Shown here one piece after another: positions 642-22,080 of a DNA stretch of 24,822 nucleotides. This DNA comes from a virus, in the IMG/VR virus record IMGVR_UViG_3300022929_000191, positions 1-24,822 of that record; one strand, written 5' to 3'. The position numbers and the translations under genes are program-made. The notes below the pieces were generated by a model that was given only the letters and a program-made list of their open reading frames with translations, did no database searches and had not been told where the DNA came from. Numbering within the stretch: the stretch's first letter is position 1; each line of letters opens with the position of its first letter.

Positions 642-2927
642 ATGACAATTACAACTCGTAGCGGAAAAGGTTCAGCATTAACTAATACAGAATTAGATGC
701 AAATTTTACTCATTTAGGCGGTGACGGTTCATATCAAGCGCCGAGTACTAAAGGCACAGCCGGACAAGTACTAAGAATGAACAGTGGTGCAACTGCACTA
801 GAGTTTGGTACTGTTAGTGGTGGTGGCGGAGGTATATCAGATTTAGTTGACGATACCACCCCTCAACTAGGTGGCGCTCTTGACACCAATGGCAATAATA
901 TTACTTTTAGTGATAATGCAAAAGCTAGGTTTGGTGCGGGTAATGATTTAGAAATTTATCATGATGCTACAGACAACCATATTGATTATTCTAGCAAGCT
1001 AACTTTTACTCCTAGTGGCGGCGCTGATATTACCTTTAATGGTACAAGCTATGACACTGATTGGATGGCGTTAGGGCATTGGCATTTTAAAGATGGTACA
1101 GAAGCACGTTTTGGTAACAGTGATGATCTTAAAATCTATCACAGTGGCACAGAAAGTATTATTAAAGACGGTGGAACAGGCACACTAAAAACACTATCTA
1201 ATGCTTACTATATTAAGAATGTTGCAGACAGTACAACAAGTGCATATTTTGATACTGTTGGTGCAGTAAATCTTTACTACAATGGTGCTAAGAAGTTTGA
1301 AACGACTTCTACAGGTATTAAGACAACTGGCACAGTAAGTGTAAACAATGCTTATACATTGCCAACAGCAGACGGCACAAATGGACAAGTACTAACCACA
1401 GATGGGTCTGGTGCTGTTACGTTTGCTACTCCTAGCGGTGGCGGCGGTAGCAGCGGTCAAAGCATTACAACAATTACATCCAACACAACTTTATCAAACA
1501 GCGACAAGGGCAAGCTAATCCAAACTGAAACGTCAGGAATTACAATTACTATTCCTGCATTGAGCGGTTTGGATGCTGATTGGTTTGTTGATATTGAAAC
1601 GCTAAACACAAACACTTTTAATCACGGCAAAGTAACAATAGACATAACTACAAACAATAGTGGTGCTTCTATCAACAGAAGCGGCAATGCTACAATGTAC
1701 GGCGGCAATCGAATTAGGTTAGCAAGAAGCCCTGCAGGTGGCGACAGCGATGGTCAACTGAACGCTTACCAATCTACAATGTTAACAGGTTCTATTGTTG
1801 TTCGTGAGGACAGACTAGCAGGAGGCTTGCAGGGTGGCGATGTAGGTGTTGGAAGTATTGCGATAGGTAATGCCAACAATGCAAGTGGAAATGATGCAGT
1901 TTGTATTGGACAGTTAGGCACAGCATCTGCTACAGGTTCTGTCGCCATTGGTTCATACAATGGCGCTAGTGCTACTGTAAACGCAACAGGTAATGGTGCA
2001 GTAGCATTAGGCAGTGGACTAGCTTCTGGTTCTAGATCTTTTGCCGCTCAAATTACAAATAGCAGTTCTAGTTACGGCGCTACCGGTTCTAACTCTATTG
2101 CGATAGGGCAAACTTCAAAAGCCACCGGCGAAGGCACTGTTGCTATAGGAAAAAATTGTAGTTCAACAGGTGCTACAAACGGTTCAGTTGCTATAGGCTT
2201 TAATGCAGAAGCAACTGCTCGAGAAACGGTAGCGATTGGTAGCTCTGCTTATGCTACTGGCTCTGGTGCCGTTGCCTTAGGCGGTTACTTTGGAACATCT
2301 GTTCAAGCTAGGGCAACAGGTACTTCAGCTTTTGCTGTTGCTGGTTACAATGGTTTAGCAAACAGAGATAGTACCGCAGCAGGTCTTTCTTCTATTGCTA
2401 TGGCAGGTGGTTACGCACAACAAAACCAATCAGTAGCTATAGGAGCTTTTGCACATGCAAATGTAAGAGGTAAAGTTGCGTGGTCATCTTATCCTCTAAC
2501 AAATTCGGATGGTGCTACACAGGCAGGTAACTATGTTTTAGCTAACTCTACTACAGATGCAACTGCAACAAAACTTGTAACCGATTATGAATGGACAACC
2601 CCTAGTTCAAGCAACCAAGTCGTCCTACCTAACAACTCAGTTTACGGCTTTACAGGTACAGTAATTGCTCGTGAAAATAGCTCAAGCACAAATGACTTTG
2701 CTGTATGGGAAATCAAAGGTGGTGCAGTAAGAGCAGGAAGTGCTTCTACAACAGCCCTTGGTTCTTATAACATCAATAGGATTAGTGAAAGCGCAGGAGC
2801 AACTAACTGGAGTATTGCTCTCTCGGCAGACACAACAAACGGTGCTGTGGCGATTACAGTAACAGGAGAAGCATCGCACTCTATTCGGTGGGTAGCTACT
2901 GTCAACACAACGGAGGTTATTTACTAA
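642..2927 (+). CDS. Tail fibre-like protein with YadA-type head repeats (761 aa)
   Basis: Probable trimeric fibre or adhesin on the virion. The N-terminus (TRSGKGSALTNTELDANFTHL) is of a type often found at the start of marine phage fibres. Residues 60-65 are a glycine run. Two ARFG.(N/D)DL.IYH repeats follow at about 95-107 and 155-167, and a second Gly/Ser linker is at 265-272. Residues 404-606 carry many SIAIG / SVAIG / AVALG repeats with the spacing of the YadA head, a left-handed beta-roll of trimeric adhesins. The C-terminal ~115 residues form a beta-rich domain resembling the end of the next gene. There is no S74 domain. The start is fixed by the conserved leader and an AGGA site. The stop codon shares one base with the next ATG (TAATG), suggesting coupled translation. 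Function in host recognition is inferred from domain type and context. Confidence 0.82.
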   Translation: MTITTRSGKGSALTNTELDANFTHLGGDGSYQAPSTKGTAGQVLRMNSGATALEFGTVSGGGGGISDLVDDTTPQLGGALDTNGNNITFSDNAKARFGAGNDLEIYHDATDNHIDYSSKLTFTPSGGADITFNGTSYDTDWMALGHWHFKDGTEARFGNSDDLKIYHSGTESIIKDGGTGTLKTLSNAYYIKNVADSTTSAYFDTVGAVNLYYNGAKKFETTSTGIKTTGTVSVNNAYTLPTADGTNGQVLTTDGSGAVTFATPSGGGGSSGQSITTITSNTTLSNSDKGKLIQTETSGITITIPALSGLDADWFVDIETLNTNTFNHGKVTIDITTNNSGASINRSGNATMYGGNRIRLARSPAGGDSDGQLNAYQSTMLTGSIVVREDRLAGGLQGGDVGVGSIAIGNANNASGNDAVCIGQLGTASATGSVAIGSYNGASATVNATGNGAVALGSGLASGSRSFAAQITNSSSSYGATGSNSIAIGQTSKATGEGTVAIGKNCSSTGATNGSVAIGFNAEATARETVAIGSSAYATGSGAVALGGYFGTSVQARATGTSAFAVAGYNGLANRDSTAAGLSSIAMAGGYAQQNQSVAIGAFAHANVRGKVAWSSYPLTNSDGATQAGNYVLANSTTDATATKLVTDYEWTTPSSSNQVVLPNNSVYGFTGTVIARENSSSTNDFAVWEIKGGAVRAGSASTTALGSYNINRISESAGATNWSIALSADTTNGAVAITVTGEASHSIRWVATVNTTEVIY
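1851..2459 (+). repeat. YadA-head coding repeats
   Basis: This stretch encodes residues 404-606 of the fibre starting at 642. Units of roughly 14-30 residues contain a (S/A)xAxG core such as SIAIGNANNASG, SVAIGSYNGASA, NSIAIGQTSKATG, TVAIGKN and AVALGSG. In YadA-like adhesins each unit forms one turn of a trimeric beta-roll. Unit length varies because of insertions, so the DNA is an imperfect repeat. Confidence 0.75.
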
Positions 2928-4270: not shown

Positions 4271-5668
4271 ATGGCATATGAGAGTTCAAAAATAACAGCG
4301 GTACCTTACTTCTACGACAAACAACTGCGCAAATACATTCAGCAGTTTATTCGTATCTTTGCAGGCTTTCAAGTAGCCATGCATGTAAACGAAGAAGGTG
4401 AAATTGTATATCAAACTGTACCAGTACGTTACGGTGATGTAAGCAGAATGGCTGCACACATTGTAAGAGAAAATTCAGAGAACATGTTGCAGACAACTCC
4501 GTTTATTAGTTGTCATGTAACAGGACTAGAGCCAGCCCCAAACATGAGAACATTTCCTCAATACGAAGAAACTGTTCCAGTTTATGAAAAAAAGTATAAC
4601 GAAGAAACAAACAGTTACGAAAACGAAGTTGGACAACAATACAGTATTAAAAGACATCAACCTGTGCCTTATCAACTTACTATGCAAGTTGACATGTGGA
4701 CCAGTAACACAGAACAAAAACTACAACTGTTAGAACAAATACTAGTATTATTCAATCCAACACTTAATATTCACACCAACAACAATGCAATGGACTGGAG
4801 TACACTCAGCTACGTAGAACTAATTGCTACCACATGGAGTATGAGAGCAATACCTAGCGGCATTGACGATATTATTGATATTAGTACTATGACATTTACA
4901 CTGCCTGTATTAATTAATCCTCCTGCTAAAGTTGTTAAAAACACAGTGATACACACTATCATTGACAACATTGAAGATGTAACAGACGAAGGATTAGAAA
5001 GTCTACGTGCAGGAGAAAACTATACTCCTCTATTCACCAGCTATAAAATTGTTACACTAGAACAGTACAAAATGAAGTTTAACATTGACAATAATGGCAA
5101 TGCCACTGCACAACTGCTTAATCAAAATGGCAGTAATTTAGATGATAACTCTGTTGCACTCAACTGGGCAAATGTGCTTAAACCGTTTGGTGTAGTCAGA
5201 GATGATGTAAGTCAACTGAGACTAAAACAAACAGCAGATCCTGCAGATACTACAAACGATATTGTTGGGAATATAAAAATAAACACCACCAATGCAAACC
5301 TATTAGATATTATATTAGATTCTAGCACTGTGCCCAGCAACACACAAGGTGTAGTAGACGCAGTAATCGATCCACAAATTAATTCACCTGGTGATGGAAC
5401 ACTAACTGCTGCCGCTACTGGAGACAGATATCTACTTACCAAAGATATTGCATTTGGAATAGGATGGGGCGGTAGTGCTGGTAAAGAAAATGACATTATA
5501 CAGTACAACGGATCAAGTTGGGACATTGTATTTGATGCAAGTTCTACTACTGATGTACAGTACATCACAAACACAACAACACAAGACAGTTTAAAATGGA
5601 CAGGAAGCAAATGGGTCAACACATTTGAAGGCACATACAATCCTGGATTTTGGCGCATATACCTATAA
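4271..5668 (+). CDS. 15: Tail sheath stabiliser / tail completion protein, T4 gp15-like, with C-terminal extension (465 aa)
   Basis: In T4, gp15 forms a hexameric ring that caps the tail tube and sheath and joins the tail to the head. Residues 1-235 follow the gp15 layout as I recall it: YFYDKQLRKYIQQFIRIF near the start, a VPVRYGD strand, PFISCHVTGLEPAP, QPVPYQLTMQVDMWTSN, EQILVLFNPTLNIH and a PVLINPPAK end strand. T4 gp15 is about 270 residues; this protein is 465. The extra C-terminal ~230 residues hold a linker and then a small beta domain near 375-465 (GDRYLLTKDI, ENDIIQYNGSSWDIVF, LKWTGSKWV), a type otherwise seen in phage fibres. No strong ribosome-binding site is seen four bases after the previous gene. 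The assignment rests on remembered family features, not a search. Confidence 0.7.
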   Translation: MAYESSKITAVPYFYDKQLRKYIQQFIRIFAGFQVAMHVNEEGEIVYQTVPVRYGDVSRMAAHIVRENSENMLQTTPFISCHVTGLEPAPNMRTFPQYEETVPVYEKKYNEETNSYENEVGQQYSIKRHQPVPYQLTMQVDMWTSNTEQKLQLLEQILVLFNPTLNIHTNNNAMDWSTLSYVELIATTWSMRAIPSGIDDIIDISTMTFTLPVLINPPAKVVKNTVIHTIIDNIEDVTDEGLESLRAGENYTPLFTSYKIVTLEQYKMKFNIDNNGNATAQLLNQNGSNLDDNSVALNWANVLKPFGVVRDDVSQLRLKQTADPADTTNDIVGNIKINTTNANLLDIILDSSTVPSNTQGVVDAVIDPQINSPGDGTLTAAATGDRYLLTKDIAFGIGWGGSAGKENDIIQYNGSSWDIVFDASSTTDVQYITNTTTQDSLKWTGSKWVNTFEGTYNPGFWRIYL

Positions 5669-9431: not shown

Positions 9432-12400
9432 TTATTCTATCCCTGCTGCATCTAACCTTGCTCTTAGAGAATCATTCTCTGCTTTAAGTTCTTGTATTGC
9501 TTTTGTTAATGTTGGAATAAGATGGTCATAATTAACAGTTTTGAAGTCTTCAATTGTTGTATCACCTAGTTCTAATTCTTGCTCTGTGATGCTTTTTGGG
9601 AACACTGTTTCAAATTCTTGTGCAATAAATCCAACCTGAGCTGTTTTTCTATCAAGGTCATACCCATTTTCTTTTACACTAGTCCAGTTATAGCTTTTTG
9701 GATCTGTCTTATCCATTTCAAACATGTTCATACTGTCAGCATAGTCATTGGTCCAGTCAAATGTTACAGGATTTAGTTGACTGATAGTATCCAGTGCATT
9801 GGTCAGTGTTTGTACATTTTCTTTGGCTCTTGAATCTGAGAATCCGTCCCAGGTTGTGTTGCCTGTTGGTCTAGTTGCTGAATTGTATTTGAATTGATAT
9901 TGATCACTTCTTGGAGCACTCCCTGCACCTTGACTGAATACAAATCTAATACCTTCATTCTGGTGTCCTCGTAAGTAAATCCAGTAGCCAGTCATATACA
10001 TAGATTTTTGAGCAGAGTTACTTTCAGATCCAAAATAGATTGGACAACTAGTCCCACCTCCAGTATAAATTGAAAGTCCCTTAGAACCACCACTAGTTCC
10101 TGTGTCAGCAGTATCACCTCTAACATGAACCATGTGTGCGTTACTGCTAATCCTCAACTCAGGATCTCCATGCACACCTGTTAAGTTATCGGTTGCTCCA
10201 TTTGCATTTGTACCTGCATTAAGACTAAAATCAATTTTATTATTACCGCCACCATTATCACAAGCAATAATCAATTTATCATCGGTTGGTTCATATCCAA
10301 AATATCCTACACCATAACCAGAAGCGTGGGCAATAAACATTGCGTCACCACCACTAAGTGATGATACCCCAATGTATCTATCGTTCCCGCCACCGTCAAA
10401 TGAGGTTGTTGAGCCAGTATTACCTGCTCTAATGTTACCGCCAATCTGTAATCTTTCTGATGGTGCACCGCCAGCGCCAATACTGACGTTACCATCAGTT
10501 GTAAATCTAACTTTTTCTTCATACGTATTGTTTATTACATTACCAAAAGTAATATGAGCTCTACCATCAACTCCGTTATTTGATGCTTGAATGGCTGCTC
10601 CATCTCTACCAGCACCTTGTCCACTATTTGTTGAGAACATAATTCCAGAGCGAGAATCAGCAACTGTAGTTGTATTTTGTAGCATTAGTATAAAGTTATC
10701 ATTACCGCCAGCAGTATCATTTCTAACATGAAGTTTTGCATAGCTAGGATCAGTGTGACCAATACCAACGTTACCGTTTGAATCTAGAAGCATATGACTA
10801 TCTGTTGCACCATTAATTTGACCTGCTTTCCATCTAATATTTTGATAAGTGTGAGATCCCGGTGTTACTTGAAATCCTAGTCCATTTGTATCAGCCACTA
10901 TTCTAGATTCTAGATTGCTTGCTCCCATATCTATTAGACTGCCAACAGTCCCGTTTATGTGTAATGTTTTATAGTTAGTAACAGTGTTTGGACTCGTTTT
11001 ACCAATACCAACATTAGATGTAATGTATGTAGTGGAATCTGTCATTTCCATTACAATGCCACCGCTATTACCGGTTGGCGCAAATCTCAGTTTACTTAAA
11101 TCGCTAGCTGTGCCTGCCCATATAGCTGGATTACCACCACCGTATCCATTTCCCCATTCTACATTATAACCAGAATCCATTCGGACACTGCCGCCAGCAA
11201 TATCTAATTTTGCACCAGGACTATTGTTCCCAATACCAACGTTGCCATCTGTACCTATGTGTAGTCGAGCGCTCCAAGTAGAACCATTGTAGTTCCAAAA
11301 CTCATAATCATTAGGATTAGAGGTTTCCTGACCAGTAAACCATTTTGTTCCATCTGCTTGTTCGTGGATAATACCATTATCATCAGTAATAGAGCTTTCT
11401 AATCTTAAGAGAGATCCAGCACTACTTCCAGGATTACCGTATAAGTCTAGTAAATAACCAGGACTAGTTGTACCAATACCAACGTTTCCAGCAGTTGTTA
11501 TATTTAATATTTCACTAGATAAGTTAGCACTATCAAATCCACTTGCACTACTGTTGTAGTACCCCAGTGAGTACATGTTACTTGCACTAGTTGCATGAGC
11601 ATGATGTATCCAGTGATGATCTTCAGTAGAAAGCAGCATAACTGATCCATTAGCTCCCCCGTCGCTAGCCATAACTTGTAGTCTAGTATCAGTTCCTTCA
11701 ACTAATAAATCAGTATTACTGTCTAGATGTTTTCCACTAACAGCTGCACTGCGAACATGTAAATTAGATTCTGGACCATTTGTGCCAATACCAACACTAC
11801 CGCCGGATTTTACTACAAGTTTTGGTGTGTATGTATCGTTGGAGTAATCTGTATCTTGAGATCCTACAGCAATTTCAAATGCCGCATCTACTGCTTCTTG
11901 TGCAGCTATTCTCCAGTTATAATGATTGCCAGTTGTTCCAAAATACAGTTCCGGCGAGCCGTTGTTTATTGCGAGATCATCAGTGAGTACACCACCACTG
12001 AGTGGCAAATAACCTGCTACCGCTGTACTAATCTGACTATTTGTTTCAGTTTGTGTGTATGTTTCTGTTTTGAGATAATAATTATCACTTGTTAACAGTT
12101 CGTATACTTGTACTTCTACTACATCTCCACTTTGTAAGTTATAGGTAAAGTTAACACTGGTACCTGTTGAAGCAACATAGTCATCACTGCTGCCTTCGAC
12201 CATTTTAGCACCATTGCGATAAACTTCTACATTTTGATTACTTGTTGCATAGTTAAGTACGTGTCCTGCTGTACCAGTTCCACTTCCTACTCCAGTGGCT
12301 GTGAAGGTAACTCCAACAGTATTACCACTTGCTCCAATAGCTGTGAAGTCTGTTGTTCCTACACTGATAATTTCATATTGATATCCAGTAACAAAGTTGC

Positions 12401-14144
12401 CTGCTGTTACCACTATACTGTCTTTGCCACTAACACTGTTGGTTGTACTACTGATATCAAATGTATACTTTCTAAATGTAGCAACAGCATCACTTGCTCC
12501 GCCGCCACCGCCACCGCCGCCACTGGCGGGAACAGCATCAACAAATGCACTACCGTTGTAAACTTTTAATTTAGCATTTAAACTATCAAAGAAGAAACTA
12601 CCTTGTGCAGGTGTTCCACTATAACTTGTTCCGTATTGCACAGTTGCATTGTTTACACTACCACGCAAACTACCAGCATTAATAGCTGTTCCCTGAACAC
12701 GAGCATTTGTAAAATACAGATTATTTGAACCTTCACTTAGATCATCTGTGTCTTTGCTGCTTAAATTTAAATTTGATCCTGTTTGTAAATTAACTCTTGC
12801 ATCTGCTCTTGCATTGGTATAATATAAATTGTTACTACCTTCACTTAGACTATTTGTGTCTTTGCTGCTAAGATCTAAATTTGATCCCACTTGTAGTGCA
12901 ATACGTGCATCAGCCCTAGCATTGGTATAGTATAAGTTTGTGCCTTCTGACAGATCTGAAGTACTCTTTGCTGTGAATCCTGCATCAACTCTAGCATCAG
13001 CTCTGGCATTTGTGTAGTACAAATTAGAACCTTCAGTTAAATCAGCTGTTGTTTTAGTGCCTAGTCTAGTGTCAAAATCTGTGTTGAATGCAGTATAGCC
13101 TGTGTTATCAATCCAAGCATAATCACTTCCGTTCCAACTTAGTACATATCCACTGGTTGGATTTGATTGATTTAAGTGTGCATCAACCCTTGCATCTGTG
13201 TAGTATAAGTTTGTGCCTTCAGTTAAATCGCTTGTTGACTTAGAACTTAGATCTAAGTTTGCGCCAGCTTGTAGTGCAATGCGAGCATCAGCTCTAGCAT
13301 CTGTATAATAAAGGTTGGTGCCTTCTGTTAGGTTAGTTGTGCTTTTAGTACCTAATCTTGTGTCAAAGGTACTATTGAAATCTGCAGTTGCTAATTTAGT
13401 TGCAATTGAGTTTGTTATAGTTGTGCTGAAATTAGCATCATCTCCCAATGCCGCCGCTAGCTCATTTAAAGTATCCAGTGTATTGGGTGCGCTATCTACT
13501 AGTGCATCTATTTTTAATTGAGCTCTTGCATCAGCTCTAGCATCTGTATAGTAAAGATTTGTACTGCCTTCACTAAGTGAATCTGTGTCAGCTGCCGCAA
13601 TACGTGCATCTGCCCTTGCATCTGTATAGTATAAGTTAGTGCCTTCACTTAGATTAGTTGTGCTTTTAGCTGCAAATGCAGTATCAAAATCTGATTGACT
13701 AAAACTATCTCCGGGTATAAACTTACTATTAGCATTATCCCAAACCAGCGACTGACCATTACTTGGCGCTGCTGTAGTGATGTCAACATCAGTGAGTGCA
13801 TCTATACTAGCTGCCGCAATGCGAGCATCAGCTCTAGCATTGGTGTAATATAAGTTAGTGCCTTCTGCTAGGTCACTAGTAGTATTGTTACTAAGATCAT
13901 CTTCTGTATCTGATGCACTAATAGTAAGTGTGCCCAATACATCATCATATGCTACTGTTATATTAGTACCAGCTTGAATTAATGCTGCAACTCTGTCATC
14001 AACTCGTTCGCTTGTAAAGTAAAGATTTGCCCCTTCACTAACAACATCAGTGTCAATGGTAAGAGATGTAATTTCACCTGTACTTTGATCTATATCTAGT
14101 GTGTTGGCTAGTGTGCCTAACTCATAATTTTTACTCAATGGCAT
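9432..14144 (-). CDS. Giant tail fibre with C-terminal S74 intramolecular chaperone (1570 aa)
   Basis: Residues 35-485 hold ten copies of a unit like (S/T)EGTNLYYTNARADARI. An eight-glycine run is at 542-549. Residues 581-628 are a small module (GTTDFTAIGASGNTVGVTFTATG). A second module (VEVYRNGAKMVEG) is near 639-683, followed by GIG fibre repeats (SVGIGTNGPESNLHV, NVGIGTTSPGYLLDL, NVGIGHTDPSYAKLHV) up to about 1240. The C-terminus is a Peptidase S74 domain from about 1436: SDSRAK supplies the Ser1436/Lys1441 dyad with the five-residue spacing of endosialidase-type chaperones. VGFIAQE and the terminal coiled coil (AIQELKAENDSLRARL) also fit. Such domains trimerise the fibre and then cut themselves off, so the mature protein should end near residue 1435. 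Expression is driven by the late promoter at 14170-14177. Confidence 0.9.
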   Translation of the reverse strand: MPLSKNYELGTLANTLDIDQSTGEITSLTIDTDVVSEGANLYFTSERVDDRVAALIQAGTNITVAYDDVLGTLTISASDTEDDLSNNTTSDLAEGTNLYYTNARADARIAAASIDALTDVDITTAAPSNGQSLVWDNANSKFIPGDSFSQSDFDTAFAAKSTTNLSEGTNLYYTDARADARIAAADTDSLSEGSTNLYYTDARADARAQLKIDALVDSAPNTLDTLNELAAALGDDANFSTTITNSIATKLATADFNSTFDTRLGTKSTTNLTEGTNLYYTDARADARIALQAGANLDLSSKSTSDLTEGTNLYYTDARVDAHLNQSNPTSGYVLSWNGSDYAWIDNTGYTAFNTDFDTRLGTKTTADLTEGSNLYYTNARADARVDAGFTAKSTSDLSEGTNLYYTNARADARIALQVGSNLDLSSKDTNSLSEGSNNLYYTNARADARVNLQTGSNLNLSSKDTDDLSEGSNNLYFTNARVQGTAINAGSLRGSVNNATVQYGTSYSGTPAQGSFFFDSLNAKLKVYNGSAFVDAVPASGGGGGGGGASDAVATFRKYTFDISSTTNSVSGKDSIVVTAGNFVTGYQYEIISVGTTDFTAIGASGNTVGVTFTATGVGSGTGTAGHVLNYATSNQNVEVYRNGAKMVEGSSDDYVASTGTSVNFTYNLQSGDVVEVQVYELLTSDNYYLKTETYTQTETNSQISTAVAGYLPLSGGVLTDDLAINNGSPELYFGTTGNHYNWRIAAQEAVDAAFEIAVGSQDTDYSNDTYTPKLVVKSGGSVGIGTNGPESNLHVRSAAVSGKHLDSNTDLLVEGTDTRLQVMASDGGANGSVMLLSTEDHHWIHHAHATSASNMYSLGYYNSSASGFDSANLSSEILNITTAGNVGIGTTSPGYLLDLYGNPGSSAGSLLRLESSITDDNGIIHEQADGTKWFTGQETSNPNDYEFWNYNGSTWSARLHIGTDGNVGIGNNSPGAKLDIAGGSVRMDSGYNVEWGNGYGGGNPAIWAGTASDLSKLRFAPTGNSGGIVMEMTDSTTYITSNVGIGKTSPNTVTNYKTLHINGTVGSLIDMGASNLESRIVADTNGLGFQVTPGSHTYQNIRWKAGQINGATDSHMLLDSNGNVGIGHTDPSYAKLHVRNDTAGGNDNFILMLQNTTTVADSRSGIMFSTNSGQGAGRDGAAIQASNNGVDGRAHITFGNVINNTYEEKVRFTTDGNVSIGAGGAPSERLQIGGNIRAGNTGSTTSFDGGGNDRYIGVSSLSGGDAMFIAHASGYGVGYFGYEPTDDKLIIACDNGGGNNKIDFSLNAGTNANGATDNLTGVHGDPELRISSNAHMVHVRGDTADTGTSGGSKGLSIYTGGGTSCPIYFGSESNSAQKSMYMTGYWIYLRGHQNEGIRFVFSQGAGSAPRSDQYQFKYNSATRPTGNTTWDGFSDSRAKENVQTLTNALDTISQLNPVTFDWTNDYADSMNMFEMDKTDPKSYNWTSVKENGYDLDRKTAQVGFIAQEFETVFPKSITEQELELGDTTIEDFKTVNYDHLIPTLTKAIQELKAENDSLRARLDAAGIE
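12693..14042 (-). repeat. Ten-copy NLYYTNARADAR coding repeat array
   Basis: Within residues 35-484 of the 1570-residue fibre, ten units share a core EG(T/S)NLYYT(N/D)ARADAR. They are separated by 15-75 variable residues, some of which also recur (LQxGxNLDLSSK, FDTRLGTK). The DNA repeat is imperfect, with many synonymous changes. One related unit lies in the 1146-residue fibre near residue 412. This is a protein-level fibre repeat, not a CRISPR. Confidence 0.8.
13392..13544 (-). repeat. Fifty-residue fibre module shared with 17057-17209, copy A
   Basis: This encodes residues 201-251 of the 1570-residue fibre, including AQLKIDALVDSAP, TLDTLNELAAALGDDANF and TNSIATKL. The same residues, with very few substitutions, are encoded at 17057-17209 in the 1146-residue fibre. 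By eye most of the DNA is the same and the differences are mainly at third codon positions. This indicates a shared ancestral module or an old recombination between fibre genes. Confidence 0.75.
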
Positions 14145-14483: not shown

Positions 14484-15032
14484 TTAACTCCCAAACGTAT
14501 TTTCTGTATTAATTGTAGTGGTGTTATTTACTAATAATCTTGTTTGACCGCTATAATTATTACTCAGACCATTTGTGTGCATATCGCTTCTAGTAGTAGA
14601 ACAATCTAACGTAAAGTTAGCTTTACTATAAACTATAATACGATTATACAAACTCCAGAGATACGAGTTCCAGAACCAAATGTCTCTATTGCTGTCTACC
14701 CAAAGATAACTGTTAGCAACATTAAAGTTACTAGCATTAGAATATAAATTATATTTGGTTGGCTGTGGACCCCAACAGTGACATTCAAATCTTATATCAA
14801 CAATTTGATTGCTGTAATTCAAATCTCCCTGCTTGAGTAATCTAGCATTAATATGAAACTCTCCAGAACCGCCTGTTCCTATTTTTGTTGCTCTACATTC
14901 ATATGATGTGCCGTTTCCGGTGTTTGTATAACTGTATGTGTTTCCTCCTAGAGCTAGCACCATAGGCATTTGTTCATATAAATTACCTATATTTGAAGCT
15001 AGTCCTTCTGGTCCCAGACTGTAATCGCTCAT
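14484..15032 (-). CDS. Unknown fibre-linked protein, possible tip (182 aa)
   Basis: I do not recognise a family. The opening MSDYSLGPEGLASNIGNLYEQMPMVLALGGNTY is followed by beta-rich, aromatic, Ser/Asn-rich sequence (FHINARLLKQGDLNYSNQIVDIRFECHCW, YLWVDSNRDIWFWNSYLWSLYNRIIVY, ANFTLDCSTTRSD). Four cysteines are spread through it. This composition resembles the tip domains that sit before S74 chaperones in other fibres. Its ATG overlaps the TGA of the S74 fibre (ATGA), with GGAGAG seven bases upstream, which suggests tight translational coupling. It may be an attached adhesin of the fibre or a separate short fibre. Function is unproven. Confidence 0.72.
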   Translation of the reverse strand: MSDYSLGPEGLASNIGNLYEQMPMVLALGGNTYSYTNTGNGTSYECRATKIGTGGSGEFHINARLLKQGDLNYSNQIVDIRFECHCWGPQPTKYNLYSNASNFNVANSYLWVDSNRDIWFWNSYLWSLYNRIIVYSKANFTLDCSTTRSDMHTNGLSNNYSGQTRLLVNNTTTINTENTFGS

Positions 15033-18000
15033 TTATTACTCTCCAATTCATTAATACGTGCTTTCAATTCTTTTATTTCTTTAAGAGCATCCTGCAATGC
15101 AGCAACAATAACTGGTGTAATTCTACCATAATCCATACTCATCATTTCATCACCGTCAGGATCTCCATAAACAGCTTCTGGAATGATTTCTTTCATCTCT
15201 TGTGCAATAAAACCGTGTACAGCATCATCTTTGGGATCTGCTTTCCATTTGTGTTCTACTGGATTCATTGAAAGTAATTTATCTGTAGCGTTTTCGATTG
15301 GCTTAATATCTGTTTTTAATCTCAGGTCTGATGTAGTATTGTAAGTTGTTCCTGTGCTTGCTACTGTGACACTGCCTTTTGTTGCTCCGCCAATACTGAA
15401 TTGAATACATCTTGCATCAGTATAAGAGCTGTGTTTACTTAAATAAAGATTGCTATCACTTGTGTTTTGTATAGGCACATATTGTCCGCCATTGCCTGCT
15501 TGTGCAACTGCAAACCCGTTAGATCCTGTACCATTGTACATTCCTGTGGCACTTTGCTGTCCAAACACAATGTTTTGTCCATTATTAAATGCTATTTGAT
15601 AACGATTAGTACTGTAATTATAAAATACAAGTCCCCCACTTTCATTGTTCACACCAAACACATTAGTTCCACTACCACTATGACCTTCCCAAAATATACG
15701 TCCAGTTACAATATCTCCCGTAGATGTGTTTATAGATCCTCCATCGATACTGCCTGCACTGCCTACATTAGTTGCAGTCTGTGCTGTTACATGCAATTTT
15801 GCTTGGGGATTTTGTGTACCAACACCCATGCGATCATTGCCTGACAATACCATTGTTTGTTGTAAATTGTTACCGTTATGTGGTTTTGTATAAAAAGATA
15901 AGCCGCCTCCATGATTACCATTGCCATATGTTTTTATACCTGAGATCATACCTGTTTTGACCAGATCAGTAGACGAACTAAACCATTTTTGTCTAAAGTC
16001 AATACCACCGCCACGGTCATAAGTGTTTTCTCCGCCATTATACAAAATACTGATATTACCAGCAGATGTAGACTCTAAACCTGGGACTCCATCTAGCACA
16101 GTCAATTTACTAACAGGATTTGGTCTATTGATACCTACATTACCATTGGATCCTTGAATTGTTAAGCGTCCTCCTACTACCCCCGAAGCATCAAAATTAA
16201 TAGTGCCAGGTGCTACAGACAAAATAGCTGTGGTGCCATAATCTATGCCGCCGCCTAATCTACTAGATCCATTTACATACAAAAGTTCTGTGGGATTATC
16301 GGTGCCAATACCAACATTACCACCAGTAAAAGCAAAATCTGTTGTGGTGTTAAAACGCATTTGATCATCACTATGAGAGTAGTGTATATAACCAGCATAC
16401 TCAGCTGCGCCTGCGCCATCTCCAAAATACAAACTCTGAGTGCCTCCGCCAACAAAAGCTATCTTTGCACTATCACCTCCAGCAATGGTTAATTTTCTGT
16501 TTGGACTCGTTGTACCAATACCAACGTTGCCATTGTCTCTTATATTGATACCTCTGCTTTCGTTCCAACTACCAGATATATTACTATATATTCCAAGTCT
16601 ATCATTATCAAAAAGACTTATAGCAAAACTGGTATTTGCTCCCCACATTTCAATTTGAGCATTATCTCCACCTGGAGCAATTAACAAATCTGAATATGAG
16701 CCGCGGCTTGTTGCTCCTGAGCCAATGGTTAGAGGTGCTGACGGACTAGTCGTACCAATACCTACTTTACCAGCAGAGTTAACTATCATTCGTGTATCAT
16801 AGTCACCGCCGCCAGCACCAATTTGCACATCATCTTGAGCACCTATTATTATAGATCCGTTGGCAGTTTCATTTCTAATAACAATATCTCCAACTGTTGA
16901 CCCACTTGCAAAAGCAGTAGGGCTAGCCGGTACACAAAATTTTAAACTGCCTGTTCCGGAAACTCCTGAGTTAGTTATCGATAACGGTTTAGTATTAAGG
17001 TTAGCATTATGATCTAAAAACAAGTTGCCAGTCATTGTACCACCGGCAAGTGGTAGTTTAGTTGCAATACTGTTAGTAACTGTTGTACTAAAGTTAGCAT
17101 CATCTCCCAATGCCGCTGCCAATTCATTCAGTGTATCTAGTGTTCCGGGTGCGCTGTCTACGAGTGCATCAATTTTTAATTGGGCTCGTGCATCCGCTCT
17201 CGCATTTGTAAAATATAAGTTTGTACCTTCGGATAGTTCGCCTGTGTTGGCTGCACCCGCAAGCTGCCAAGCACTGCCATCCCAAATGTACAATTTATTT
17301 GTGTCAGTAGCAAATGCCTGATCACCTGCATTGTTGTCTGTTAGCGGCAGATACGTACTGTCTGCATAAACATTAACCTTAGCAACAACTGCACTTCCGT
17401 CTTCAACAACTAATTCTGCTGTGCCTGCGACTTCACGGATTTTGTTTTCAAATGAGGGAGTATTTTCAACATAGGTTGCTAAATCCTGCGGAACAAACTG
17501 TCCGGTTGTAGCATCATAAACAATACACATCTGATTAACCAAACTTGGAATAGGTCTTAGTTCAACTGGTGTTTTGTGTCCTTCTTGTGTGTGCTGTGCG
17601 TACACCACATAGTTGCCGTTAATATTTGTTTCAACTGCCAGATCTTTGATAGTAATAGCACCTCTCATTGAGCTGTGATTACCACACTGGTAATATAGTG
17701 TGTCAGGAGCATTTGCTGGAACAACAAATGTTACAGTGCCGCTATCAGTCCTGCTATTGGTAACTCCACTAGTATATTCACCAAAATATGAGCCTGCACT
17801 AAAGTTAGTGCCATTGTCAGTTGTAAAATAAAAAGGATGCCCACTTGCGTTTACATTGAATGTGTACGTGCCGCCTCTGCGCAACGGCCCGATGTTTGGA
17901 TTATCTCCGTCTCTCGGACCACTAAAGGTATACGCACCTGCGTTAGCAAAACTTACTCCATATGTTACACTGGGAGCAGTGAGAGTAGGCGGTGTTACCA

Positions 18001-18469
18001 CACTCGGAACACTGATACTCAAACGTTGAACAGTGGTATCTGACCCGCCGTTTATATCTGGATGACTGTCAGTGAATGTTCCTTGATCAGTAACCCAGCT
18101 GATATTGTTTTGTGTACCTGCTCCATCAATCCATTTAAAATGTATTGTGTGTGCTTGAGTCATACTACCGTATTGAGTTTTGGCAAAGTTATTTACTGTG
18201 TAAGTACCTTGCTTGTATAGAGGTACATTTAATTCATTACTATTAGTAATTGCACGTCTGGCATAAGGCAAACTACTTGTAAGCCAATTCCACAACCACT
18301 GTGTGTCTTGCCCAGCTGCAGGTGCCGCTACATCAATTGTTAATACTTCTGGAGCAATAGCTAGATTTACATTACTGAGTTTGTCAATTGGTATACTGTT
18401 ATTGGCAATGCTATCATTGTCGATGGTATTATCTGCTAGTGCATCTGATGTGAGTTTATTAAGGGTCAT
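15029..18469 (-). CDS. Tail fibre with amicyanin-like domain and C-terminal S74 chaperone (1146 aa)
   Basis: Residues 1-40 are a fibre N-terminus (TSDALADNTIDNDSIANNSIPIDKLSN). Residues ~169-274 look like a cupredoxin: a beta-sandwich with H211 in ASGHPFYF, then C262, H265 and M268 in YYQCGNHSSMRG. This is the C-x2-H-x2-M spacing of amicyanin, a type 1 copper protein. After a linker and one SEGTNLYFTNARADAR unit come GIG fibre repeats (NVGIGTTSPNRKLTI, NVGIGTDNPTELLYV, MGVGTQNPQAKLHV). The C-terminus is Peptidase S74: SDLRLK gives Ser1047 and Lys1052, with HGFIAQEM and a terminal coiled coil (ALKEIKELKARINELE). Self-cleavage near 1046 would release the chaperone. Fibre and S74 calls are strong. 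Copper binding is an inference from the four residues. Confidence 0.9.
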   Translation of the reverse strand: MTLNKLTSDALADNTIDNDSIANNSIPIDKLSNVNLAIAPEVLTIDVAAPAAGQDTQWLWNWLTSSLPYARRAITNSNELNVPLYKQGTYTVNNFAKTQYGSMTQAHTIHFKWIDGAGTQNNISWVTDQGTFTDSHPDINGGSDTTVQRLSISVPSVVTPPTLTAPSVTYGVSFANAGAYTFSGPRDGDNPNIGPLRRGGTYTFNVNASGHPFYFTTDNGTNFSAGSYFGEYTSGVTNSRTDSGTVTFVVPANAPDTLYYQCGNHSSMRGAITIKDLAVETNINGNYVVYAQHTQEGHKTPVELRPIPSLVNQMCIVYDATTGQFVPQDLATYVENTPSFENKIREVAGTAELVVEDGSAVVAKVNVYADSTYLPLTDNNAGDQAFATDTNKLYIWDGSAWQLAGAANTGELSEGTNLYFTNARADARAQLKIDALVDSAPGTLDTLNELAAALGDDANFSTTVTNSIATKLPLAGGTMTGNLFLDHNANLNTKPLSITNSGVSGTGSLKFCVPASPTAFASGSTVGDIVIRNETANGSIIIGAQDDVQIGAGGGDYDTRMIVNSAGKVGIGTTSPSAPLTIGSGATSRGSYSDLLIAPGGDNAQIEMWGANTSFAISLFDNDRLGIYSNISGSWNESRGINIRDNGNVGIGTTSPNRKLTIAGGDSAKIAFVGGGTQSLYFGDGAGAAEYAGYIHYSHSDDQMRFNTTTDFAFTGGNVGIGTDNPTELLYVNGSSRLGGGIDYGTTAILSVAPGTINFDASGVVGGRLTIQGSNGNVGINRPNPVSKLTVLDGVPGLESTSAGNISILYNGGENTYDRGGGIDFRQKWFSSSTDLVKTGMISGIKTYGNGNHGGGLSFYTKPHNGNNLQQTMVLSGNDRMGVGTQNPQAKLHVTAQTATNVGSAGSIDGGSINTSTGDIVTGRIFWEGHSGSGTNVFGVNNESGGLVFYNYSTNRYQIAFNNGQNIVFGQQSATGMYNGTGSNGFAVAQAGNGGQYVPIQNTSDSNLYLSKHSSYTDARCIQFSIGGATKGSVTVASTGTTYNTTSDLRLKTDIKPIENATDKLLSMNPVEHKWKADPKDDAVHGFIAQEMKEIIPEAVYGDPDGDEMMSMDYGRITPVIVAALQDALKEIKELKARINELESNK
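17057..17209 (-). repeat. Fifty-residue fibre module shared with 13392-13544, copy B
   Basis: This encodes residues 421-471 of the 1146-residue fibre. They match residues 201-251 of the 1570-residue fibre closely, including LKIDALVDSAP and TLNELAAALGDDANF. In both proteins the module directly follows an NLY(Y/F)T(N/D)ARADAR unit, so unit and module were probably moved together. Confidence 0.75.
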
Positions 18470-18504: not shown

Positions 18505-21500
18505 TCATCCCATATCATAATGATTTCTATAATAATCGAATATTGTTTTCAAATCATATGTTGATAGACTGTTTTTGTAATACATAAAAGCACCAATAGC
18601 TCCGTACGAACTGGTACTGCTACTGCCTTGTCCCCAAGCTTCGCCATATGCTCCCCACTCACTTCCGCCTAATACTAATCTCCTAGTATTTGCGTTTGCA
18701 TTCCATCTCCAATCATAGTTAGCAGTACTGGTTTGTTGATTGCCATTCGGATAGTTGTTATCAAAAAAAGTAATACTCTGCTGATTCTCATCCCAATATT
18801 GATGAGCAATTAAATACCATTTTTGTGAGGCCACAGCAGTACTGTATCCCGAAGGATAAGATATGTTTTGGCTTTGACCATTATAACTATATATGTTAGC
18901 ATAACTTGGATAATGTCTGATAATGTGATAACCATAACTACTTGCATTTGTATTTTGCGTTAGCAGTGATTCATTGCTGTTGATTCCGCCGCCGTTTCCT
19001 CGCATAACAATCCAAACAAACGTAACTGGACCATTGTATGTCATCATGTGGTATCTATCTTGATTAGTAGCTGCAACACCGCCTCCTGCTGCATTAGAAC
19101 CAGTTTTCATCGAGTATCTGCCATCTACAACACCTGTGATATTGTTTACCATATGAGAGTTACTGAGACTAGCTGCGCCTTCATTACGCAGTGTCCAACT
19201 CATAGGTTCATTGCCTAAATCTGCTAGTGTATATCTATCGACACCGGATCCACTTCTTGGATATCTATAGCTGTGTTGCATATCTAAATAACTAGATAGC
19301 CCTGGGATACTGTGCGGTGCCATAGTACTTGGTACAGGATGATAATTGTAATTTACCTGTGCTTGACCTATTAAATTTATATCACCAGTAGCCGCTAGTG
19401 TTTGTGCATATACATCAGTTGCAACCATACTACTAGCACTTATTTCATCTTGACGAGCGTCTGACGAAACAGCGTATTCATACAGTTCAATTTCCATCAA
19501 ACCGCCATAAGCATCACTAGCCCAGAAATCTTTCATAATAAATTTCCAGTATCTATAACTGACTGCTTCGATGTCATCCACTGGATCATTTTTTACACTG
19601 GTCTGATTACCAGCAGGTATTCTAAAACTATATCCAGGGTTTGGTTCGTGCCCTCCACTCTTACCCATTACGTCATCTAAAACTGTGACCCAACTGTTGG
19701 CATTATTAACATCATTTGTGCCTTGAAGAATAAATCTTTTTACTTCACGTTTGCTATCTTCATACTCATTCTGATTATAGATAACTGCTCTGTTGATGCT
19801 TTTAGCAGCTCCTAAATCTAGTATAACATAGGCATTATCTCTTTGATTACTTGCAGTTAGCCAATCACTGCCCGCACCGCTGCCTTCGATTTGTTCATAA
19901 TTAGTAATTCCAGTATATAAATTTTCTGGTGTACGTACAGTATTATGTCGTGAACTATAACTGTGTACACTGGCATTTAATCTAGCACTGTTTTTACCAG
20001 CACGAATAAATCCGTAAACTTCTAGTGTTGCTTGTGGATTACTACTGCGTATTCCTGTATTACCATTGTAGTGAAAAACAGCTCTTTCTGATCCTTGATT
20101 ATACATTCTAATACTTGTCGCATTATTTTGATATAACCACAGATCGCCATTGCTGCGTTTTGAAACAAGTGTATTGTCACCAGATCTGCTGGTATGATCT
20201 AGTTTTATGTCGTTGTTATAGCTAGAATTGTCTTGTCTAAATATAGCTACTTCATGTCTTGCTCCGCTGTTTTTAACATCTAATTTGCCTGTAGGCGCAT
20301 CATGTCCAATGCCCACACAAGATGAAACAGCAACATGAAATGGATAATCTACAAAACCGCCAGTTGAATTATACATTTGTAACTGAAATTCGCCGCTTAC
20401 ATTGTGTAGCTGATAAGCTCCAATGGTACTATCATATATAGCACCCGTCTCAACATTTCTGTTAAATCCAATACCTGCAAAATCATTGCCAGCTCTCAGC
20501 ATCAACCCACTTGTATTGCTTACTAGGATATTACCGCCTGTCACTGTTAATTTTTCTGCTGGATCTGATAACGTATTAATGCCAACATTTCCCGAGGAAG
20601 ATATACGCATTCTCTCTGGATTACTAGTTGATCCAGTTTGGAAAACCAGCCTCATAGGCACATTGCCGCTTGATACATTTCCATCAACCTTTACCAACAC
20701 ACTTGCCCGCTGTTGATAAGACGATCCATCGTATCCGCTCCAGTGGATTTGACCTACAGCCGTGTTATTTGTTTTTGCTGTTGGATTAGCAAAAGTACCA
20801 TTGGTACTGAAAAATCTAAAATCATTACCGTTGTTTCCAGATCGATATGTGTGAGGTCCTGCTTCTCCTGAATGTTTTAGAGTCGTTGTTCCTCCTTCGA
20901 CATGGAATTTACTACTAGGACTGCTAGTACCAATACCAACATTACCTGTGTCATAATCCCAAAATTGTACTAATCCTACCCCTGCACCTCCGCTAACAGC
21001 GCCGCCATAAGCGTATAGTCCTAAATCATCAGTATTACTGATTCTGTCTAATTTCCATTCTTCGATACCGTTACGCCATAATTTTAAAGTACTTGCTCCA
21101 TAACCGTCAATATTAATAACAGCGTTTGCGCTAGAGCCTCCTGAGGAATATGCATTTTTAACTCTTAATTGTGATCCTGTATTTGTAGTGTTATTAAATA
21201 CGTCTAATTTATAACTAGGACTCGTCGTACCAATACCAACATTTCCTAAACTAATTAAAGAGCCTACATTAGCTTGACTGCTAATATTTAAATTGCGCCA
21301 TCTACCATCACTTGTTCCAAGATCTATTAATTCATCACTTGCAGTATTGTTTAAAGGTCCAAAGTAGCTTGCACTGTCATCGCTGTAAGTTCCAAGTCTT
21401 AATGCTCTGTCTGTTTGTTGTGTGTTTGTAATTGTGATTGTACTGGCTTGGGTGACATTGCCCACAAGTGTTCCATCAAATGTACCGTATGCTGTATTGC

Positions 21501-22080
21501 CTGACAGGTTTATGTTTTTGTTAAAATCAAATTCATCGTTGGTAGAATCATATGTGATCGTAGCATTTGCACCATCGATTGTAATACCAGCTCCATTTGC
21601 TGCGGCAGCATTTGATGCTCCACTTGCCAATGTTAAATTTAAATCATCGATTTCAACAGTAGTACTGTTGATAGTTGTTGTTGTGCCATCAACTTGTAAG
21701 TTGCCTGCGATAACAACCGTACCAGTGTTGTCGCCTACAGCTGCAGGATCTATAGTAAATGTAGCAGGGCCTGCTAGATAACCTGTAAGTGTTGTATTAG
21801 TGAACGTAGGACTGGTATTGGGCAACACATAGCTTTGTAAGTCACTAACTTGACTTTCAGTAACACTCAGTGCTGCTTGGTGTTGTGTAACCATTGCTTG
21901 TGTTACATGAGCGTTTGCCATTGTAAATGTTTTTGTACTAAAGTCAAGTGTTGTGTGTAGTTTTGCTGCTGTTATTTCACCATCGCTGATATCCGCAGCG
22001 GTGATAGCGCCAGAGGCTATAAGATCTGCGGTGATTGCATTTGATTCTAATGCTAGTGTAGGTAACTTGTTAATGGGCAT
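18505..22080 (-). CDS. Tail fibre with discoidin-like and LamG-like C-terminal domains (1191 aa)
   Basis: The N-terminus has heptad-like ITA repeats (ESNAITADLIASGAITAADISDGEITAAKL). A common fibre module follows at 125-195 (GNLQVDGTTTTINSTTVEIDDL). GIG fibre repeats run from 278 to about 690 (NVGIGTTSPSYKLDV, NVGIGTSSPSSKFHV). Residues ~700-870 resemble an F5/8 type C (discoidin/CBM32) domain: DWLTASNQRDNAYVILDLG, INRAVIYNQNEYEDSKREVKRFILQG, SYRYWKFIMK and a closing MEIELYEY strand. Residues ~925-1191 look like a LamG/concanavalin sandwich (YLDMQHSYRY, TFVWIVMRGNGG, KWYLIAHQYWD, IGAFMYYKNSLSTYDLKTIFDYYRNHY). Both domain types commonly bind sugars. There is no S74. It is the only gene between the late promoters at 22104-22111 and 18495-18502. 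Confidence 0.87.
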   Translation of the reverse strand: MPINKLPTLALESNAITADLIASGAITAADISDGEITAAKLHTTLDFSTKTFTMANAHVTQAMVTQHQAALSVTESQVSDLQSYVLPNTSPTFTNTTLTGYLAGPATFTIDPAAVGDNTGTVVIAGNLQVDGTTTTINSTTVEIDDLNLTLASGASNAAAANGAGITIDGANATITYDSTNDEFDFNKNINLSGNTAYGTFDGTLVGNVTQASTITITNTQQTDRALRLGTYSDDSASYFGPLNNTASDELIDLGTSDGRWRNLNISSQANVGSLISLGNVGIGTTSPSYKLDVFNNTTNTGSQLRVKNAYSSGGSSANAVINIDGYGASTLKLWRNGIEEWKLDRISNTDDLGLYAYGGAVSGGAGVGLVQFWDYDTGNVGIGTSSPSSKFHVEGGTTTLKHSGEAGPHTYRSGNNGNDFRFFSTNGTFANPTAKTNNTAVGQIHWSGYDGSSYQQRASVLVKVDGNVSSGNVPMRLVFQTGSTSNPERMRISSSGNVGINTLSDPAEKLTVTGGNILVSNTSGLMLRAGNDFAGIGFNRNVETGAIYDSTIGAYQLHNVSGEFQLQMYNSTGGFVDYPFHVAVSSCVGIGHDAPTGKLDVKNSGARHEVAIFRQDNSSYNNDIKLDHTSRSGDNTLVSKRSNGDLWLYQNNATSIRMYNQGSERAVFHYNGNTGIRSSNPQATLEVYGFIRAGKNSARLNASVHSYSSRHNTVRTPENLYTGITNYEQIEGSGAGSDWLTASNQRDNAYVILDLGAAKSINRAVIYNQNEYEDSKREVKRFILQGTNDVNNANSWVTVLDDVMGKSGGHEPNPGYSFRIPAGNQTSVKNDPVDDIEAVSYRYWKFIMKDFWASDAYGGLMEIELYEYAVSSDARQDEISASSMVATDVYAQTLAATGDINLIGQAQVNYNYHPVPSTMAPHSIPGLSSYLDMQHSYRYPRSGSGVDRYTLADLGNEPMSWTLRNEGAASLSNSHMVNNITGVVDGRYSMKTGSNAAGGGVAATNQDRYHMMTYNGPVTFVWIVMRGNGGGINSNESLLTQNTNASSYGYHIIRHYPSYANIYSYNGQSQNISYPSGYSTAVASQKWYLIAHQYWDENQQSITFFDNNYPNGNQQTSTANYDWRWNANANTRRLVLGGSEWGAYGEAWGQGSSSTSSYGAIGAFMYYKNSLSTYDLKTIFDYYRNHYDMG

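Follow-up and report, generated by a model that had tools for sequence, protein, structure and literature searches.

The fibre gene and the position of the domain

Can the tail fibre of a marine phage carry a type 1 copper site, and what might such a site do in a virus particle? The question arises from the window, by which we mean the whole 24.8-kb stretch of an IMG/VR record analysed here, in which an earlier note had recognised an amicyanin-like type 1 copper motif within a fibre gene. The relevant features are:

15029..18469, minus strand: tail fibre of 1146 aa with a C-terminal Peptidase_S74 (endosialidase-type chaperone); PF13884 E=5.9e-16 and several tail-fibre PHROGs
18005..18358, minus strand: beta-rich partner domain, residues ~38-155, directly preceding the cupredoxin domain
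17639..17980, minus strand: cupredoxin domain, fibre residues ~164-277; AF2 model, rusticyanin match and A3 profile
15167..15331, minus strand: Peptidase_S74 chaperone, fibre residues 1047-1101; PF13884
14179..14481, minus strand: tail fibre assembly chaperone-like protein, downstream of the fibre and in the same direction; phrog_4912 E=1e-14

A C-terminal Peptidase_S74 and matches to fibre-family PHROGs identify the window protein as an S74-type tail fibre. Its 1146-aa ORF also bears out the earlier assignment of residues 169-274 to positions 17648-17965. The cupredoxin domain is internal to the fibre, is the only one in the record and belongs to a protein whose sequence has no export signal. 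The partner domain preceding it is typical of the window's fibre class and has no ligand set of its own. Fibre residues ~26-430 are common to ~94-165 of the ORFs that we collected and the cupredoxin part to 251-254, while the fibre beyond residue ~500 is common to 25 at most. Therefore, the cupredoxin domain lies in a conserved N-terminal cassette ahead of a distal part that is exchanged, rather than in the fibre shaft as previously suggested. Exchange of the distal part would fit what is expected for host-range evolution.

A looser iterated profile hinted at a second, ligand-less copy immediately upstream (residues ~65-163). This copy was gone under strict thresholds, and the matches listed for a longer model comprised the known cupredoxin domain only. 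We therefore do not claim a tandem duplication.

The 25-kb window carries several adhesin-like genes. Adjoining the fibre is a fibre-like protein of 1191 aa (18505-22080, minus strand) carrying a galactose-binding domain of the discoidin type (PF22633, E=4.2e-6, just short of the cut-off). A second S74 protein of 1570 aa is found at 9432-14144 (minus strand), and a 761-aa protein with YadA-head repeats is encoded on the strand opposite to the fibre (642-2927, plus strand). The tail sheath protein (4271-5668, plus strand) is closest to those of the jumbo phages Phosso (469 kb) and Atu_ph07 (490 kb), which suggests that the window forms part of the genome of a jumbo phage.

Fold and homology to blue copper proteins

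AlphaFold2, supplied with the domain and 30 homologues, gave a model with a pLDDT of 93.1 and a pTM of 0.85. In the predicted structure H55 (H211 of the fibre) lies between strands 45-51 and 57-60, C106 closes strand 101-106, and H109 and M112 occupy a short loop ahead of strand 113-119, which is the blue-copper arrangement. The beta-sandwich proposed by the earlier note is thus predicted with confidence, with the putative ligands placed relative to the strands as they are in blue copper proteins. The best PDB folds returned by Foldseek were cupredoxins, with AcoP at the top, and CueO, rusticyanin and small laccases. VIA-align aligned 100 residues with rusticyanin (Z 10.8, rmsd 2.3 A) and gave a Z of 10.4 with the N-terminal cupredoxin domain of Hyphomicrobium nitrite reductase. 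Rusticyanin and AcoP, the best fold matches, differ from the window domain in that identity is about 20%, the ligand loop is longer and both are separate proteins of acidophiles.

At the sequence level, a PDB search with the single window sequence retrieved nothing useful, and a profile of close homologues (A1) retrieved only pseudoazurin, NirK and amicyanin, all sub-threshold. A profile of 25 divergent relatives (A3) was alone decisive for homology to blue copper proteins. Searched against the PDB, A3 found NirK (8.9e-6), amicyanin (E 4e-5; wild type 2.1e-4), plastocyanin (4.8e-5), and rusticyanin and azurin (6e-4), so that both of the families proposed for comparison in the earlier note, plastocyanin and azurin, are recovered. 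In the A3 alignment, HN...CTPHPFMRG of amicyanin falls on the H...C-x2-H-x2-M site of the fibre. Moreover, PF00127 (Copper-bind) is matched by 11 of the 25 A3 members (best 1.7e-7) and TIGR02657 (amicyanin) by 13 (best 1e-6). The window protein alone scores 14.8 bits against PF00127, under the gathering cut-off of 21.2, and ordinary annotation therefore misses the domain. A plant-named At5g54830-like domain, PF25489, is matched by 8 of the 25 (best 3.2e-7) and may be the same fold.

Taken together, the domain displays the features of the cupredoxin superfamily, namely a Greek-key beta-sandwich, the order of the ligands, sequence homology and family-wide conservation of the ligands, and we regard its identity as a cupredoxin homologue as close to certain. 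It is not an amicyanin. Amicyanin (TIGR02657; PDB 1aac, 2gb2) shares with it the order and spacing H...C-x2-H-x2-M, the Y-x-C before and the MRG after. However, amicyanin carries electrons as a free protein of the periplasm and has HN at its first ligand, whereas the window domain has HP, is fused to a fibre and lacks the export signal that would be expected of a free exported protein with methylamine dehydrogenase as its partner. Against TIGR02657 it scores 16 bits, where the curated cut-off is 110.2. Of the amicyanin-like motif originally described, the cupredoxin fold and the ligand spacing stand, but membership of the amicyanin family does not.

Conservation of the four putative ligands

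When viral contigs were searched, relatives turned up at 79 loci. Conservation was compared in 61 distinct close homologues and in 26 divergent representatives sharing <65% identity. The conservation of the putative ligands in the two sets is as follows:

17837..17839, minus strand: H211, first type 1 copper ligand (GHPF); 61/61 close homologues, 26/26 representatives
17684..17686, minus strand: C262, thiolate ligand closing the penultimate strand; 61/61 close homologues, 25/26 representatives
17675..17677, minus strand: H265, second His ligand; 61/61 close homologues, 25/26 representatives; place kept with a C-H loop two residues longer
17666..17668, minus strand: M268, axial Met ligand; 60/61 close homologues, the remaining one ended by the contig end; 25/26 representatives

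H211 and C262-x2-H265-x2-M268 are at the fibre residues originally reported, and YYQCGNHSSMRG is found there. The possibility raised in the earlier note, that the Cys or the two His vary freely in close homologues, is not borne out, all three being kept in 61 of 61. By comparison, the pattern H-x(40-60)-C-x2-H-x2-M arose in 4 of 20,000 shuffles of the fibre protein.

We then assembled 162 near-complete distinct domains from the viral loci, cultured cyanophages, bacterial MAG contigs and two further viral searches. All four ligands are kept in 161 of the 162, a count to which pattern-based locus searches may have contributed by favouring motif carriers, although most patterns omitted the Cys-His-Met loop and the cyanophage relatives were collected by tblastn, not by pattern. 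Two extra residues separate Cys and His in 23 of these 161 (CTVPSHASM type), leaving the ligands unchanged. The sole exception comes from an Opitutia MAG (L089), where Cys, His and Met are gone together (YSGSQSGVGG). The protein concerned (L089:2240-4903) has InlB-type repeats and offers a natural metal-dead control.

When the roughly 119 columns of the 26 representatives are ranked by conservation, all four ligands come within the first seven. The chance of four given columns falling in the top seven of 119 is about 4e-6 if dependence between columns is ignored. The 25 sequences of A3 have a mean column identity of 32%, and no column is invariant among them apart from Y180, H211, Y260, C262, H265 and M268. 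Between the ligands, the representatives vary in sequence and have mainly polar residues. The first His is followed by a near-invariant Pro, where amicyanin and plastocyanin have Asn. A chance motif is ruled out by ligand conservation, fold and profile homology. Judged from these alignments, all four putative metal-holding residues are kept by selection across many marine viruses.

Distribution among phages, bacteria and other viruses

Among cultured phages, 347 records were found by tblastn to contain the domain, and almost all belong to Synechococcus and Prochlorococcus phages. The proteins that carry it are gp9-like connectors, baseplate proteins, fibres, spikes and S8-peptidase proteins, and in the gp9-like and S8-peptidase proteins of cyanophages it forms the very C-terminus. 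All 25 A3 members match PHROG_677, 'baseplate wedge tail fiber protein connector', a cyanophage gp9 family whose C-terminal ~110 residues are the window's domain, although the family is gp9-like and not an S74 fibre. The C-terminal part of this widespread and opaque cyanophage family is thereby explained, the domain being hidden by the family name.

Eight large viral records contain 1-4 copies of the domain each, and their tail-sheath genes are distant from that of the window or were not found. This suggests that the module moves between phage lineages. One fibre (L005) carries a further cupredoxin copy later on, at L005:5528-5866, which is divergent (42% identical) and also has all four ligands.

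In bacterial MAG contigs, the domain occurs in small stand-alone proteins, one lipoprotein-like (L085:3788-4240, 151 aa) and one of secreted type (L087:3848-4480, 211 aa). Both show 51-52% identity over ~80 residues and share the four ligands, but they are small, have a signal-like N-terminus and lack fibre parts. Small exported proteins of this kind are a possible source of the domain. Moreover, two stand-alone 'Beta-sandwich proteins' in BFVD, A0A481Z6J5 and A0A481YVH3, from Pithovirus LCPAC302 and Marseillevirus LCMAC201, match the fold with an E of about 2e-7. We found no paper on cupredoxins in giant viruses in the open-access literature searched.

A putative metal-locked fibre module

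We propose that the window fibre contains a true cupredoxin domain with an intact type 1 site, that this domain is a building module of marine phage fibre and baseplate proteins, and that its site probably holds copper, in a structural role. We put the probability of this reading at roughly 0.6, and its parts differ in strength. The fold, the homology and the constancy of the ligands are established computationally. The His-Cys-His-Met site is very probably maintained for metal binding, and the metal at the predicted site is probably copper in the main. A role in structure or assembly is put forward tentatively, judged solely by the position of the domain in the protein. Recurrence of the domain in gp9-like connectors, baseplate proteins, fibres and spikes supports a structural role.

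Under this proposal, the site would bind copper in the virion, and the metal would tie the loop of the first His to the last loop of the beta-sandwich. The latter step is, with the role, the weakest of the scheme. The metal-pinned domain would then act within the virion-proximal cassette as a stiff, stable unit for attachment or jointing, onto which variable distal parts are fused, and the metal centre would serve structure rather than electron transfer.

Cupredoxins are otherwise known as electron carriers and oxidase domains. A limited search of the open-access literature retrieved no paper on a cupredoxin, plastocyanin-like or blue copper domain in a phage tail fibre, and an ISME paper mentioning 'copper-binding' concerns viral NirK and not a fibre domain. 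Within that search, no account of a cupredoxin as a building module of the virus particle came to light. If copper is held, a redox-active metal would be present at the fibre or baseplate of marine phages, with effects on virion stability, host contact and the speciation of copper in the sea. The distribution of conserved sites suggests that many ocean phage particles may hold copper. In a more speculative form, which we consider doubtful, virions would be copper proteins whose centres in fibre trimers and baseplates load copper on assembly or release and need it for fibre function or host contact. If so, phage particles would constitute a pool of copper ligands in sea water.

Foremost among the alternatives, but still unlikely, is that the centre acts in host recognition as a copper bait or redox sensor, docking on a copper or electron-transfer protein of the host at the cell surface. 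The iron-bearing tips of T4-type fibres and the Trojan or Ferrojan horse hypothesis for iron provide a precedent (PMC11705849). The T4 gp37 fibre tip and the R22Y fibre hold this metal through HxH sites (PMC11705849), but these are octahedral, His-only iron sites within the fibre trimer, unrelated to the window domain in fold and ligands. The placement of the domain at the very C-terminus of the cyanophage gp9-like and S8-peptidase proteins also favours docking. However, in the window fibre it lies in the conserved N-terminal cassette and not in the exchanged distal part, and the residues that separate the ligands, variable and mostly polar, do not resemble a docking patch under conservation.

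Ranked next, and likewise improbable, is a repurposed fold free of metal, a plain beta-sandwich in which packing or hydrogen bonding would account for the retention of the four residues. Phage virions do contain immunoglobulin-like sandwiches that work without metal, and the cytoplasm, in which fibres are made, has little free copper; the lack of an export signal in the window protein points the same way. Yet the ligands come from different structural elements and rank with the most constant positions although the core is variable, they stay intact when the C-H loop changes in length, and the only loss seen, in the Opitutia protein, takes Cys, His and Met together.

Which metal it would be is a separate matter. 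Zn(II) binds cupredoxin sites in vitro, the sequence does not tell which metal is held, and conservation of the four residues would be equally expected with another thiophilic metal. The site could therefore hold zinc in nature, or copper and zinc according to availability, in a purely structural capacity. Against this, Cys, the two His and the axial Met match the ligands of copper sites exactly and show no shift towards zinc-like ligands, and we place this explanation third, with little probability.

Lastly, accidental fusion of a host-derived petE (plastocyanin) auxiliary metabolic gene, conceivable in that cyanophages carry petE (PMC3037559) and that a relative in phage S-SCSM2R (XQU50115.1) is annotated PetE, is rejected on ligand spacing and architecture and has a negligible likelihood: plastocyanin (PF00127, TIGR02656, including phage-borne petE) shares the fold and ligands but is a photosynthetic carrier, not a virion part, with C-x2-H-x4-M, whereas the spacing here is C-x2-H-x2-M or C-x4-H-x2-M, with x2 between His and Met in the window, and S74, gp9 and S8 proteins all carry the domain as a fusion. 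The S-SCSM2R 'PetE' has no signal peptide and shares its N-terminus with S-SSM7 gp9, and its gene adjoins an S8-domain gene, as does that of S-SSM7 gp9. This protein (L095:1788-2291) is probably a gp9-like structural protein with the domain, and its label is likely mistaken. 'PetE' calls on phage genes of this kind are probably wrong and could make photosynthesis genes seem commoner in phages than they are.
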